Under the pieces are notes generated by a model. It made no database searches and was not told the DNA's origin. It was given only the letters and a program-made list of their open reading frames with translations. 64,000 bases of DNA from Motacilla alba alba (taxonomy: Eukaryota > Chordata > Aves > Passeriformes > Motacillidae), in assembly GCF_015832195.1 (NCBI RefSeq), contig NC_052032.1, positions 9,864,618 to 9,928,617 on the forward strand, in the 5' to 3' direction. Of this stretch, positions 34,901 to 36,328 are shown one piece after another. How positions within the stretch are numbered: the stretch's first letter is position 1; each line of letters begins with the position of its first letter. Position numbers and translations under genes: made by a program.

Positions 34901-35242
34901 CTGGTTTTTGCTTTTCTAAAAACCTTTTTCCGTCTCATCTGACCCCTTTGGTCAGTTACTGCAGTTATTGTAACCACTGGGGTTTCATTGTTTCTCCATT
35001 AATTTCTTTTACAGAAAGGGACTCCAGGTGCTCTCTTCCCCTCCCCACTAATTGAAGTAGCTGTCCCTGTAGCGTGTGGCTCTGTGCTGCTCCTCAGTAT
35101 TGGTCTCATATTCATGGTTCTCACGGCAAGGAAGAGGCGCCAGTCCGAGGGGACCTACAGCCCGAGCCAGCAGGAGGTGGCAGGAGCTCGGCTGGAGATG
35201 GACAGTGTCCTAAAGGTGCCACCCGAAGAGCGCCTAATCTAG
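4863..35242 (+). CDS. CRB2: CRB2, Crumbs cell polarity complex component 2 (13 joined exons)
   Basis: Join 4863-4935, 14076-14774, 16492-16687, 17101-17240, 17695-17877, 18762-18875, 27199-28137, 28905-29461, 30265-30430, 30840-31707, 32511-32627, 33039-33165, 35015-35242. Every junction is GT-AG and in phase, giving 4407 nt and 1468 residues. The product is a type I apical membrane protein that recruits PALS1/PATJ and FERM proteins to set epithelial and photoreceptor polarity (family knowledge). Visible order: signal peptide, 13 EGF-like repeats, LamG, EGF, LamG, two EGF (the second truncated), LamG, five EGF, membrane helix about 1407-1431, then a 37-residue tail with a GTY FERM-binding motif and C-terminal ERLI PDZ ligand. 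The tail and the juxtamembrane segment resemble mammalian CRB2 and not CRB1, and the neighbour DENND1A agrees. It is longer than human CRB2 (about 1285 residues) because of extra N-terminal EGF repeats. Confidence 0.95.
12684..12737. repeat. exact 2 x 27-bp tandem duplication
   Basis: The unit starting GTATTTATCTTGGAATTGAG occurs twice without a mismatch, at 12684-12710 and 12711-12737. The perfect identity suggests a recent duplication. It lies in CRB2 intron 1 and has no evident function. Confidence 0.9.
13074..13104. repeat. poly-T tract
   Basis: A nearly uninterrupted run of T in CRB2 intron 1. It could be the reverse-strand tail of an old retroposed sequence or a simple homopolymer; no flanking element was recognised. 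Confidence 0.85.
14076..14774 (+). CDS. CRB2: CRB2 exon 2: EGF-like repeats 1-6
   Basis: A 699-nt exon, phase 1 to phase 1, coding for about residues 25-258. Six EGF-like units can be counted from their six-cysteine patterns. Several carry the calcium-binding start (VDEC, IDEC) and the hydroxylation-type CxNxGxC core (for example CLNNGTC, CRNGAIC). EGF2 (about [15 protein letters not shown]) is atypical. The acceptor is CATCAG and the donor G|GTACGG. The 3' half (about 14440-14774) is extremely GC- and CpG-rich, which produces a long spurious open frame on the opposite strand. Confidence 0.93.
14775..16491 (+). other. CRB2: CRB2 intron 2
   Basis: Ordinary intron with donor GTACGG and acceptor TTTTAACCAAG. 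No repeat or candidate exon was noticed. Confidence 0.85.
16492..16687 (+). CDS. CRB2: CRB2 exon 3: EGF-like 7 and part of 8
   Basis: A 196-nt exon, phase 1 to phase 2, residues about 258-323. It completes the end of EGF6 (VNCD), then encodes a full calcium-type EGF ([15 protein letters not shown]...) and the first part of the next ([20 protein letters not shown]). The exon ends AG|GTGAGA, splitting a serine codon. Confidence 0.93.
16688..17100 (+). other. CRB2: CRB2 intron 3
   Basis: A 413-bp intron with donor GTGAGA and acceptor GGTGCCCCACAG. Nothing else was recognised in it. Confidence 0.85.
17101..17240 (+). CDS. CRB2: CRB2 exon 4: end of EGF 8 and most of EGF 9
   Basis: A 140-nt exon, phase 2 to phase 1, residues about 323-370. 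It begins by completing a serine codon and continues [16 protein letters not shown], closely similar to the matching part of human CRB2, then [14 protein letters not shown]. The donor is CCAG|GTGGGC. Confidence 0.93.
17241..17694 (+). other. CRB2: CRB2 intron 4
   Basis: A 454-bp intron with acceptor GTCTCGTGGCAG. No internal feature was seen. Confidence 0.85.
17695..17877 (+). CDS. CRB2: CRB2 exon 5: EGF 10 with a long insert loop
   Basis: A 183-nt exon, phase 1 to phase 1, residues about 370-431. After completing EGF9 (YTGQHCE) it encodes a calcium-type EGF ([15 protein letters not shown]) with an unusually long loop containing [16 protein letters not shown] before [12 protein letters not shown]. 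The same extended loop with an FSY/FSF core occurs at this position in mammalian CRB1 and CRB2, so it is a family feature and not an intron-retention artefact. Confidence 0.93.
17878..18761 (+). other. CRB2: CRB2 intron 5
   Basis: An 884-bp intron with donor GTGAGC and acceptor TTTCACTTTGCAG. No candidate exon or repeat was seen. Confidence 0.85.
18762..18875 (+). CDS. CRB2: CRB2 exon 6: EGF-like 11
   Basis: A 114-nt symmetrical exon, phase 1 to phase 1, residues about 431-469. It encodes one calcium-type [20 protein letters not shown] and then [12 protein letters not shown]. It could be skipped without a frameshift. The donor is CAG|GTAACC. Confidence 0.93.
18876..23565 (+). other. CRB2: CRB2 intron 6, left part
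   Basis: 4.7 kb of mostly AT-leaning intron. GC content rises markedly between about 23220 and 23500, with several CpG dinucleotides (GCGGCCGGG, CCGGCGAGCG), just before the alternative first exon described at 23566. No repeats or other exons were recognised. Confidence 0.7.
23220..23565 (+). promoter_or_regulatory. CRB2: candidate internal CRB2 promoter (GC-rich)
   Basis: This local GC/CpG-rich patch inside a long, AT-leaning intron lies directly 5' of an ATG that opens a signal-peptide-like exon (23566). A C/T-rich stretch (about 23500-23545) separates the two. No TATA box is seen. The promoter call is inferred from position and composition only. Confidence 0.35.
23566..23617 (+). CDS. CRB2: candidate alternative CRB2 first exon with its own signal peptide
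   Basis: Encodes [17 protein letters not shown] plus one base: a lysine followed by a hydrophobic core ending in small residues, as in a signal peptide. The ATG has G at -3 and A at +4. The exon ends CTAGCAG|GTAATG in phase 1, exactly the phase needed to join exon 7 at 27199, giving Ala-Gly-Val-Glu-Cys. The predicted product would keep EGF12 onward, all three LamG domains and either tail, and would lack the 11 N-terminal EGF repeats. Short Crumbs isoforms made from internal promoters are known in the family (mouse CRB1-B; zebrafish crb2b short form). A chance match cannot be excluded without transcript data. Confidence 0.45.
23618..27198 (+). other. CRB2: CRB2 intron 6, right part
   Basis: 3.6 kb ending in the acceptor AATCTCTTCCGCAG. 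It contains a canonical TATA box at 27008-27015, listed separately. No other exon was recognised. Confidence 0.75.
27008..27015 (+). promoter_or_regulatory. CRB2: TATA-box sequence upstream of CRB2 exon 7
   Basis: TATAAATA preceded by CTC and followed by GC, about 190 bases upstream of exon 7. A homeobox-type TAATCC word lies about 600 bases further upstream (near 26404). A start about 30 bases downstream would run straight into exon 7, with only a tiny upstream frame (ATG at 27060) and no signal peptide. It may be fortuitous. Confidence 0.25.
27199..28137 (+). CDS. CRB2: CRB2 exon 7: EGF 12-13, LamG 1, EGF 14
   Basis: A 939-nt exon, phase 1 to phase 1, residues about 469-782. It encodes a calcium EGF ([16 protein letters not shown]) and a second EGF starting [11 protein letters not shown], as in human CRB2. 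The first laminin-G-like domain follows (from about [12 protein letters not shown] through [26 protein letters not shown] and the closing [12 protein letters not shown]). Then comes an [20 protein letters not shown]...[12 protein letters not shown]. The donor is ATG|GTAAGT. A 391-codon frame on the opposite strand is a shadow of its GC-rich codons. Confidence 0.95.
28138..28904 (+). other. CRB2: CRB2 intron 7
   Basis: A 767-bp intron with donor GTAAGT and acceptor TTTTCTCTTCCAG. The reading frame of exon 7 stays open some 200 bases into it, but without Crumbs-like sequence. Confidence 0.85.
28905..29461 (+). CDS. CRB2: CRB2 exon 8: LamG 2
   Basis: A 557-nt exon, phase 1 to phase 0, residues about 782-967. 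The second laminin-G domain is visible from [16 protein letters not shown] through [16 protein letters not shown], the [11 protein letters not shown] strand, VFIGGHPNP and the closing [14 protein letters not shown]. The exon ends at CISDDTCQ, the start of EGF15. There are NxS/T sites (for example NGT and NRT). The donor is CAG|GTATGT. Confidence 0.95.
29462..30264 (+). other. CRB2: CRB2 intron 8
   Basis: An 803-bp intron with acceptor TTTTGTTTTTCAG. Nothing notable was seen. Confidence 0.85.
30265..30430 (+). CDS. CRB2: CRB2 exon 9: EGF 15 and truncated EGF 16
   Basis: A 166-nt exon, phase 0 to phase 1, residues 968-1023. EGF15 reads [10 protein letters not shown]...[18 protein letters not shown], nearly the same wording as human CRB2 (TWNDFHCTCPANFTG). 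EGF16 ([14 protein letters not shown]...GYVC) is incomplete and leads directly into LamG3, a family hallmark. The donor is TGT|GTAAGT. Confidence 0.95.
30431..30839 (+). other. CRB2: CRB2 intron 9
   Basis: A 409-bp intron with acceptor CCCTTTATTTATAG. No internal feature was seen. Confidence 0.85.
30840..31707 (+). CDS. CRB2: CRB2 exon 10: LamG 3 and EGF 17-19
   Basis: An 868-nt exon, phase 1 to phase 2, residues about 1023-1312. The third laminin-G domain runs from [13 protein letters not shown] through [26 protein letters not shown] and [17 protein letters not shown]. Three EGF repeats follow ([42 protein letters not shown]). From about 31040 the exon is extremely GC-rich at synonymous sites, much above its introns. 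This explains two long antisense frames over it. The donor is CGA|GTAAGT. Confidence 0.95.
31708..32510 (+). other. CRB2: CRB2 intron 10
   Basis: An 803-bp intron with donor GTAAGT and acceptor TTGCTCTCCCCAG. Nothing notable was seen. Confidence 0.85.
32511..32627 (+). CDS. CRB2: CRB2 exon 11: EGF-like 20
   Basis: A 117-nt symmetrical exon, phase 2 to phase 2, residues about 1312-1351. It encodes [18 protein letters not shown] and then CSCRPGFTG. It has a glycosylation sequon (NFT) next to the first cysteines, as the matching human CRB2 repeat has NVT. The donor is GAA|GTAAGT. Skipping it would preserve the frame. Confidence 0.92.
32628..33038 (+). other. CRB2: CRB2 intron 11
   Basis: A 411-bp intron with acceptor CTCTTCCTTTCCAG. 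No internal feature was seen. Confidence 0.85.
33039..33165 (+). CDS. CRB2: CRB2 exon 12: last EGF-like repeat (21)
   Basis: A 127-nt exon, phase 2 to phase 0, residues about 1351-1393. It encodes [17 protein letters not shown] and then [17 protein letters not shown], a calcium-type EGF just outside the membrane. The exon ends CATCAAC|GTAAGC at a codon boundary. This phase-0 donor can be joined equally well to either downstream tail exon (35015 or 36110). Confidence 0.93.
33166..35014 (+). other. CRB2: CRB2 intron 12
   Basis: A 1.85-kb intron with donor GTAAGC and acceptor TTTCTTTTACAG. It has GT-rich low-complexity sequence near 34715-34760. No coding-like sequence was seen. Confidence 0.85.
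35015..35242 (+). CDS. CRB2: CRB2 exon 13: membrane helix and CRB2-type tail
   Basis: A 228-nt terminal coding exon in phase 0. Its 75 residues are a 13-residue linker ([13 protein letters not shown]), a membrane helix ([20 protein letters not shown]...) and a 37-residue cytoplasmic tail: [20 protein letters not shown], then a segment ending [11 protein letters not shown] before TAG. The GTY motif binds FERM proteins and the ERLI end binds the PALS1 PDZ domain (family knowledge). Linker, helix start and tail all match mammalian CRB2. Confidence 0.95.
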
Positions 35243-36109: not shown

Positions 36110-36328
36110 CAGCGAGTGTGGGCGCACCTCAGCCACTCCTCCGTGGTGGGAGCAGTCGGGGCTGCGGGGGCTGCCCTGCTCCTCGCTCTGGCTGTAGCCA
36201 CGGCGGTTGCCATGAAGAGGAGGAGAGCGACTCAGGGAACCTACAGCCCGAGCCGGCAGGAGAAGGACGGGGCGCGAGTGGAAATGTGGAACGTGATCAA
36301 GATGCCCCCGACCGAGCGGCTGATCTGA
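36110..36328 (+). CDS. CRB2: alternative CRB2 terminal exon: second membrane helix and CRB1-type tail
   Basis: The acceptor CTGTTCTACCACAG is followed by 72 codons and TGA. A short linker ([11 protein letters not shown]) precedes an alanine/leucine-rich membrane helix ([18 protein letters not shown]...). The 37-residue tail follows: [20 protein letters not shown], then [17 protein letters not shown]. The tail aligns without gaps to that of exon 13 (23 of 37 identical) and keeps both the FERM (GTY) and PDZ (ERLI) motifs. [12 protein letters not shown] and RVEMWN are the wording of vertebrate CRB1. Phase 0 matches the exon 12 donor, and the frame is intact with no sign of decay. Tandem CAGCAG at 36107-36112 allows two acceptors differing by one glutamine. 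Confidence 0.8.

Follow-up and report, generated by a model that had tools for sequence, protein, structure and literature searches.

Alternative last exons in bird CRB2 that may offer a choice between a CRB2-type and a CRB1-type intracellular tail

Our analysis of 64,000 nucleotides from Motacilla alba alba (RefSeq assembly GCF_015832195.1, contig NC_052032.1, forward-strand positions 9,864,618 to 9,928,617; this whole stretch is called the window, and positions are counted from its first letter) indicated that the CRB2 gene of this bird has two alternative last exons, exon 13 and exon 14, which would allow a choice between a CRB2-type and a CRB1-type tail. We give this reading a probability of about 0.87. 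Splicing of exon 12 to exon 13 would give ordinary CRB2, and skipping of exon 13 with joining of exon 12 to exon 14 would give an unchanged ectodomain followed by another membrane helix and the CRB1-type tail. Crumbs tails, 37 residues in length, recruit PALS1/PATJ, PAR6/aPKC and FERM proteins, and the tail type of a Crumbs protein has been taken as fixed for each gene. The exons concerned are the following.

27199..28137, + strand: CRB2 ectodomain exon with EGF and laminin-G domains, from the gene model, a domain search and comparison with Crb2
28905..29461, + strand: CRB2 ectodomain exon, from the gene model and comparison with Crb2
30265..30430, + strand: CRB2 ectodomain exon, from the gene model and comparison with Crb2
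30840..31707, + strand: CRB2 ectodomain exon, from the gene model and comparison with Crb2
32511..32627, + strand: CRB2 ectodomain exon, from the gene model and comparison with Crb2
33039..33165, + strand: exon 12, last EGF repeat, with the shared donor at 33165 (...CDIN / GTAAGC, phase 0)
35015..35242, + strand: exon 13, with CRB2-type linker, membrane helix, tail and stop; starts KGTPG behind a phase-0 AG acceptor
36110..36328, + strand: exon 14, the alternative last exon, with linker, helix, CRB1-type tail (ending TERLI) and stop; starts QRVWAHL behind a phase-0 AG acceptor

The gene in the window was identified as CRB2 from its domain content and its exon-wise match to pigeon (Columba) Crb2. 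Joining the exons from 27199 to 33165 left a frame open over 924 amino acids, with EGF and laminin-G domains present, and in an exon-wise comparison with pigeon Crb2 this gene model showed 68-95% identity, with additional pigeon Crb2 matches from exons between 14063 and 18877. The protein of exon 13 showed 90-100% identity to bird CRB2 among the matches listed and 94.8% to Columba Crb2. The original prediction, made from the letters of the DNA, had described two complete membrane-plus-tail exons in phase 0 with exon 12 and a gap-free tail alignment; the frames, acceptors and stops proved correct, and the two tails indeed aligned without gaps at 62.2% identity (23/37 residues). Hydropathy maxima of the membrane helices (Kyte-Doolittle, 19-residue window) were 2.45 for exon 13 and 2.38 for exon 14, and both 37-residue tails carried the juxtamembrane GTY (FERM) and the terminal ERLI (PDZ). 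Both also matched the tail of 'Protein crumbs' in PDB entries 4wsi/4yl8 (E 6.9e-9 for exon 14, 3.1e-10 for exon 13), a chain that, in line with PMC6928914, is probably the fly's.

The conservation of the exon-14 tail was traced with exon 14 joined to the CRB2 ectodomain as query against 5.8 billion proteins, which returned 166 matches at E <= 1, 120 of them listed. The exon-14 tail was found in 77 of the 120 listed matches (P0003-P0079: 58 bird, 3 turtle, 3 lizard and 13 amphibian rows, at 55-97% identity to the query), the other 43 being 42 CRB1-tailed proteins and one hagfish protein; emu, cassowary and tinamous were among the birds. In 72 of the 77 models, the tail directly followed the last EGF repeat of exon 12, with a joint reading ERCDIN / QPVWAHL in birds and VRCEK / PRLIRKA in frogs. 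The five exceptions comprised three models that run into an apparent intron (P0059, P0064 and P0065), one without the linker (P0061) and a sparrow model with both tails (P0003). All 37 tail residues were kept in 44 of the 58 bird rows, emu included, 36 in ten rows and 35 in four, and the 19 non-bird rows retained 30-35 of the 37. Over the 77 rows, mean column entropy was 0.16 bits in the tail vs 0.93 bits in the linker and helix; the W and ERLI were present in 77/77 and the M before the W in 74/77. These patterns suggest that exon 14 is under purifying selection, and its conservation across birds, turtles, lizards and amphibians is unlike that of a relic. The original prediction had staked itself in part on an open frame conserved in relatives, and that is what these rows contain.

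The same rows bear on two other accounts of exon 14. It could be a duplicate in decay that splicing no longer includes, for which a somewhat weaker acceptor (12/17 pyrimidines) would speak, but the intact bird tails, the 30-35 residues kept outside birds and the invariant ERLI make this very improbable. It could also end a second, small Crumbs gene that lies downstream of CRB2 and is driven by a promoter of its own, as its position beyond the usual CRB2 stop would allow; however, three in-frame stops were found in the 40 codons upstream of exon 14 (that frame alone being scanned), and the tail stands straight after the CRB2 EGF exon in nearly all models, so that we regard a separate gene as equally far-fetched.

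That both tails belong to one locus was indicated by ectodomain trees. In the large tree (238 of 273 proteins, the hagfish protein and 34 short sequences having been left out), the 42/42 CRB1-tailed rows fell on one side with support 100, and the opposite side held 118 exon-13-tailed rows and 78 rows labelled as exon-14-tailed. One of these 78, P0179, has a mispredicted C-terminal end and received its exon-14 label by default; true exon-14 rows grouping with CRB2 therefore number 77/77. A smaller tree of 32 rows repeated the separation of CRB1-tailed from exon-13- and exon-14-tailed ectodomains, and in it X2 of Xenopus laevis, with exon 14, was the sister of X3, with exon 13, at distance zero; the same held for X4 and X1 of the hummingbird Heliangelus, one of each tail kind. 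Within each pair, both models list a contig of identical length and diverge exactly at the exon 12 boundary (after GVRCEK in X. laevis and ERCDVN in Heliangelus). Evidently, the exon-13 and exon-14 models of these two species come from one locus, and zero-distance pairs that split at the end of exon 12 mean that existing annotation includes two isoforms of a single gene. The turtle Pelusios contributed one row per tail kind, both poor models. An earlier sorting, in which each ectodomain was assigned to whichever of two references (CRB2, 924 residues; CRB1, 1,323 residues) gave the best bit score, had put 45 exon-13-tailed and 13 exon-14-tailed rows in CRB1; it was dropped as unreliable, the references being of unequal length, and was replaced by the trees.

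An isoform number (X2, X3, X4 or 2-T2) appeared in the names of 16 of the 77 exon-14 rows, and numbered isoform labels usually rest on transcript alignments. Many bird rows named 'CRUM1 protein, partial' combine a CRB2 ectodomain with the exon-14 tail and were apparently misnamed after their tail. Judged from these sequences, the find is wider than a bird oddity: the exon persists in turtles, lizards and amphibians as well as in birds, concealed by isoform numbers and CRB1-derived names. The original prediction had spoken of a mutually exclusive terminal-exon switch; models of both kinds exist for what is evidently one locus, and 'alternative last exon' is a better term for it than 'mutually exclusive'.

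Several points weigh against this reading of the locus. The exon 12-14 junction is a feature of annotated isoform models, whose names are pipeline-made; in 43 of the 58 bird rows, the isoform evidence was judged by name alone, and many of the bird 'CRUM1 partial' models are probably homology-built and thus no sign of expression. Database rows are 90% clusters and not independent samples. The acceptor of exon 14, with 12/17 pyrimidines, was the lowest of the eight counted (the others having 13-16), and the alternative site at the same acceptor also has 12. Such a weaker acceptor would be in keeping with an exon that is minor or regulated. The acceptor is a NAGNAG (CCACAG / CAG / CGA) with entry at 36110 or 36113, which makes the first Q of exon 14 optional, and this leading Q is present in some database models and absent from others. 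With the two-exon reading, an exon 12-14 transcript would be expected in Motacilla alba alba itself, and the choice between exons 13 and 14 may be regulated.

An inner GT in exon 13 at 35215 (CTAAAG / GTGCCA) is the exit point of two database models, P0003 (sparrow) and P0179 (pigeon). Taken at face value, it would permit tandem use, in which exon 13 is cut at this donor (GTGCCA) and joined to exon 14 to give a two-helix protein, as P0003, reading MDSVLK / QRVWAHL, would have it and as P0179, cut at the same point, might be read. However, both tails occurred together only in P0003 among 273 proteins and the donor is poor; both uses of the inner GT are probably gene-prediction artefacts, and we attach almost no probability to tandem use.

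The wording of exon 14 is that of CRB1, as the original prediction had stated: human CRB1 ends RVEMWNLMPPPAMERLI (PMC4356366), and the bird's own CRB1 tail is alike. Whole-genome searches (1.07 Gb, E <= 10) were made with both tails as queries. The exon 14 query returned five matches, more than chance would explain: besides its own locus it hit CRB1 at E 9.1e-17 and exon 13 at 5.3e-10, and the two remaining matches had E values of 2.5 and 4.0. The exon 13 query returned exon 13, exon 14 and CRB1, with nothing further. No CRB3-like tail was among the genome matches to these two queries, no search having been aimed at CRB3. The third clear tail, on another contig (C8), showed 60% identity to exon 14 over 63 residues; since the last exons of its locus matched Rhea CRB1 at 77-93%, the C8 locus is the true CRB1. 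In 49.5 kb around the last exons of CRB1, the search for an exon-13-like exon gave only a 17-residue match (E 0.96) besides CRB1's own tail.

How far back exon 14 reaches was approached through tail trees. A tree of 45 rows recovered clades for exon-13 tails (96/91) and CRB1 tails (96/92) and a weaker one for exon-14 tails (92/83), and it joined exon-14, CRB1 and hagfish tails (97/92) against exon-13 tails; a 34-row tree with fly as sole outgroup likewise joined exon 14 with CRB1 (97/91). We consider an origin of the tail switch before the CRB1/CRB2 split the most likely one, at slightly better than even odds; probably, both tail types were then present in one gene before the split, and CRB1 retained the W type alone. 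Some results speak against this early date. With fly as the only outgroup, the exon-14 rows did not form one clade, and approximately unbiased (AU) tests rejected neither a grouping of exons 13 and 14 (p 0.138 in the 45-row set, 0.162 in the fly-rooted set) nor one of exon 13 with CRB1 (p 0.107, fly-rooted set). A grouping of exon 14 with CRB1 minus hagfish was not rejected either (p 0.333). Because the AU tests leave other groupings standing, the pre-split origin is likely and not proven. The original prediction's suggestion of inheritance from before the split is thus favoured by the trees, with the AU tests sparing its alternatives.

The chief competitor, which we rate as unlikely, though the least so of the alternatives, is a duplication of the exon within CRB2 later than the split, with exon 14 keeping the ancestral CRB1-like sequence and exon 13 changing. 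Residue-by-residue comparison speaks on both sides. When the commonest residues of three sets of chosen rows (13, 11 and 9) were compared at 36 sites, exon 14 agreed with CRB1 against exon 13 at 8; exons 13 and 14 agreed against CRB1 at 5, exon 13 agreed with CRB1 against exon 14 at 0, and all three differed at 4. At the 8 exon-14/CRB1 sites, fly has the exon-14/CRB1 residue at 3, which favours a duplication inside CRB2, and the exon-13 residue at 2 (L for V, D for W); since fly has L and D there, V and W look derived, and the W is common to exon 14, CRB1 and hagfish. At the 5 exon-13/exon-14 sites, the fly residue is that of exons 13 and 14 in 2 cases and that of CRB1 in 2. The AU tests leave the pairing of exons 13 and 14 that this account requires unrejected, but the 97/92 support for the group of exon 14, CRB1 and hagfish stands against it.

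A third account, in which CRB2 received its second tail exon from CRB1 once the genes had split, by copying or gene conversion, is favoured by these residue counts (exon 14 with CRB1 at 8 sites and with exon 13 at 5, exon 13 with CRB1 against exon 14 at none). However, exon-14 tails were not nested within vertebrate CRB1 tails, and same-codon use was near expectation: 12 of 25 common residues of exon 14 and CRB1 had identical codons (10.6 expected), as did 11 of 22 common to exons 13 and 14 (against 8.9 predicted by CRB2 codon usage). Synonymous sites look saturated between exon 13, exon 14 and CRB1. From the lack of nesting and the near-expected codon use, any copying must predate tetrapods, and an elephant-shark fragment of like type may push the date further back; we hold such copying to be improbable. 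Recent duplication or gene conversion between the two exons, raised by the ACCTACAGCCCGAGCC common to both, was set aside, same-codon use being near expectation.

The fragment in question, P0128 of Callorhinchus milii (99 residues), carries an exon-14-type helix and tail. It came from a search with exon 14 alone, which gave 32 matches, seven of them of exon-14 type (P0123-P0129), including sea turtle and elephant shark. P0147, a 73-residue tail on a short contig, presents a mixture of both tail types and could be a pre-duplication invertebrate tail. In mammals, exon 14 was on no CRB2 row among the 120 of 166 matches listed, though mammalian CRB1 tails were reached at ~1e-10, this search covering proteins and not mammalian DNA; mammalian CRB2 rows among the best 120 of 343 exon-13 matches carry exon 13. 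The loss of one tail from mammalian CRB2, as originally predicted, fits these proteins within the same limit. No ray-finned fish row among the listed matches (120 of 166; proteins, not genomes) had exon 14 on a CRB2 ectodomain. We consider it an even bet that the ancestral vertebrate Crumbs was a two-tail gene selecting its intracellular tail through alternative last exons, that CRB1 fixed the W type, that CRB2 of birds, turtles, lizards and amphibians (perhaps also of elephant shark) kept both, and that mammals lost the W exon of CRB2.

The proposed splice choice also depends on where transcripts end. Two candidate polyadenylation (poly(A)) signals were located.

35538..35543, + strand: AGTAAA, a weak variant and the sole poly(A)-like hexamer of the scanned set between exons 13 and 14
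36670..36675, + strand: ATTAAA, a candidate poly(A) signal downstream of exon 14 with a T-rich stretch after it; a consensus match only

A hexamer scan between the two exons (35243 to 36109) found neither AATAAA nor ATTAAA. The exon-13 form may end at the weak AGTAAA site; alternatively, both forms may rely on the ATTAAA at 36670 and end near 36690, with exon 14 then lying in the 3' untranslated region of the exon-13 form, and the switch would in that case be a pure splice choice.

Since GTY and ERLI are kept in both tails, neither would be expected to lose binding of PALS1 and of FERM proteins. Binding of the isolated PALS1 PDZ domain is carried by ERLI (PMC4356366), whereas binding of the Crumbs tail involves the PALS1 PDZ-SH3-GUK unit with contributions from all three domains, and aPKC phosphorylation of the tail disrupts binding of moesin but not of PALS1 (PMC6928914). 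The two tails diverge mid-way (LEMDSVLK in exon 13 vs VEMWNVIK in exon 14) and by a QSEG/ATQG change, and it is in these two places that the tail sequences would put a functional difference. A swap of tails would probably not abolish but tune how the receptor binds PALS1, PAR6 or FERM partners, or how aPKC controls this binding.

No description of an alternative tail exon in CRB2 was found in searches of the open-access literature, subscription papers lying mostly outside that scope, which agrees with the original prediction's statement that none was known; unremarked database isoform models do exist, and 'crumbs homolog 2 isoform X2' and 'CRUM1 protein, partial' are this isoform under automatic names, often taken from CRB1. 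The nearest parallel is CRB1-B of mouse and human (PMC7335077), likewise a product of a Crumbs gene whose alternative last exons change the membrane helix and intracellular domain, and previously, by that paper's account, without RefSeq, GENCODE or UCSC annotation. However, the CRB1-B tail is described there as lacking the conserved FERM/PDZ motifs and as having its own promoter, whereas exon 14 of CRB2 keeps GTY and ERLI, is of CRB1-A type and belongs to a different gene, and is thus not CRB1-B-like. The CRB1-A tail resembles exon 14 in the pattern [ED]G.RVEMWN...ERLI and joins it in the tail tree, but CRB1 is a separate gene on the other contig and its tail ends MVQPPPMERLI, unlike exon 14. 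Secreted CRB2 (CRB2S, mouse Crb2+9A) and a secreted Xenopus variant (PMC7108746) are also CRB2 isoforms but stop before the helix and are tailless, and a human CRB2 form without membrane helix is mentioned in PMC7044448. Zebrafish Crb2b-lf/sf (PMC7044448) and Drosophila Crb_A-D (PMC5312091) are likewise isoforms of one Crumbs gene, differing by start site, as the zebrafish long and short forms do, or by EGF repeats, and the Drosophila forms have one common tail. In PMC11129452 and PMC2266719, nothing on tail exons was found.

In birds and Xenopus alike, a CRB2 gene able to swap tails would mean that knock-downs, tail antibodies and CRB1-vs-CRB2 assignments need re-reading, and the natural swap would offer a direct test of what tail differences do, as well as a testable case of paralogues dividing up an ancestral splice switch. 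If the ancestral gene had two tails, mammals split between two genes what one gene does elsewhere by splicing.

Beyond CRB2, the window holds a minus-strand open frame at 41334-42821 (495 residues) without a Pfam match, whose end may resemble DENND1A, the neighbour of human CRB2.

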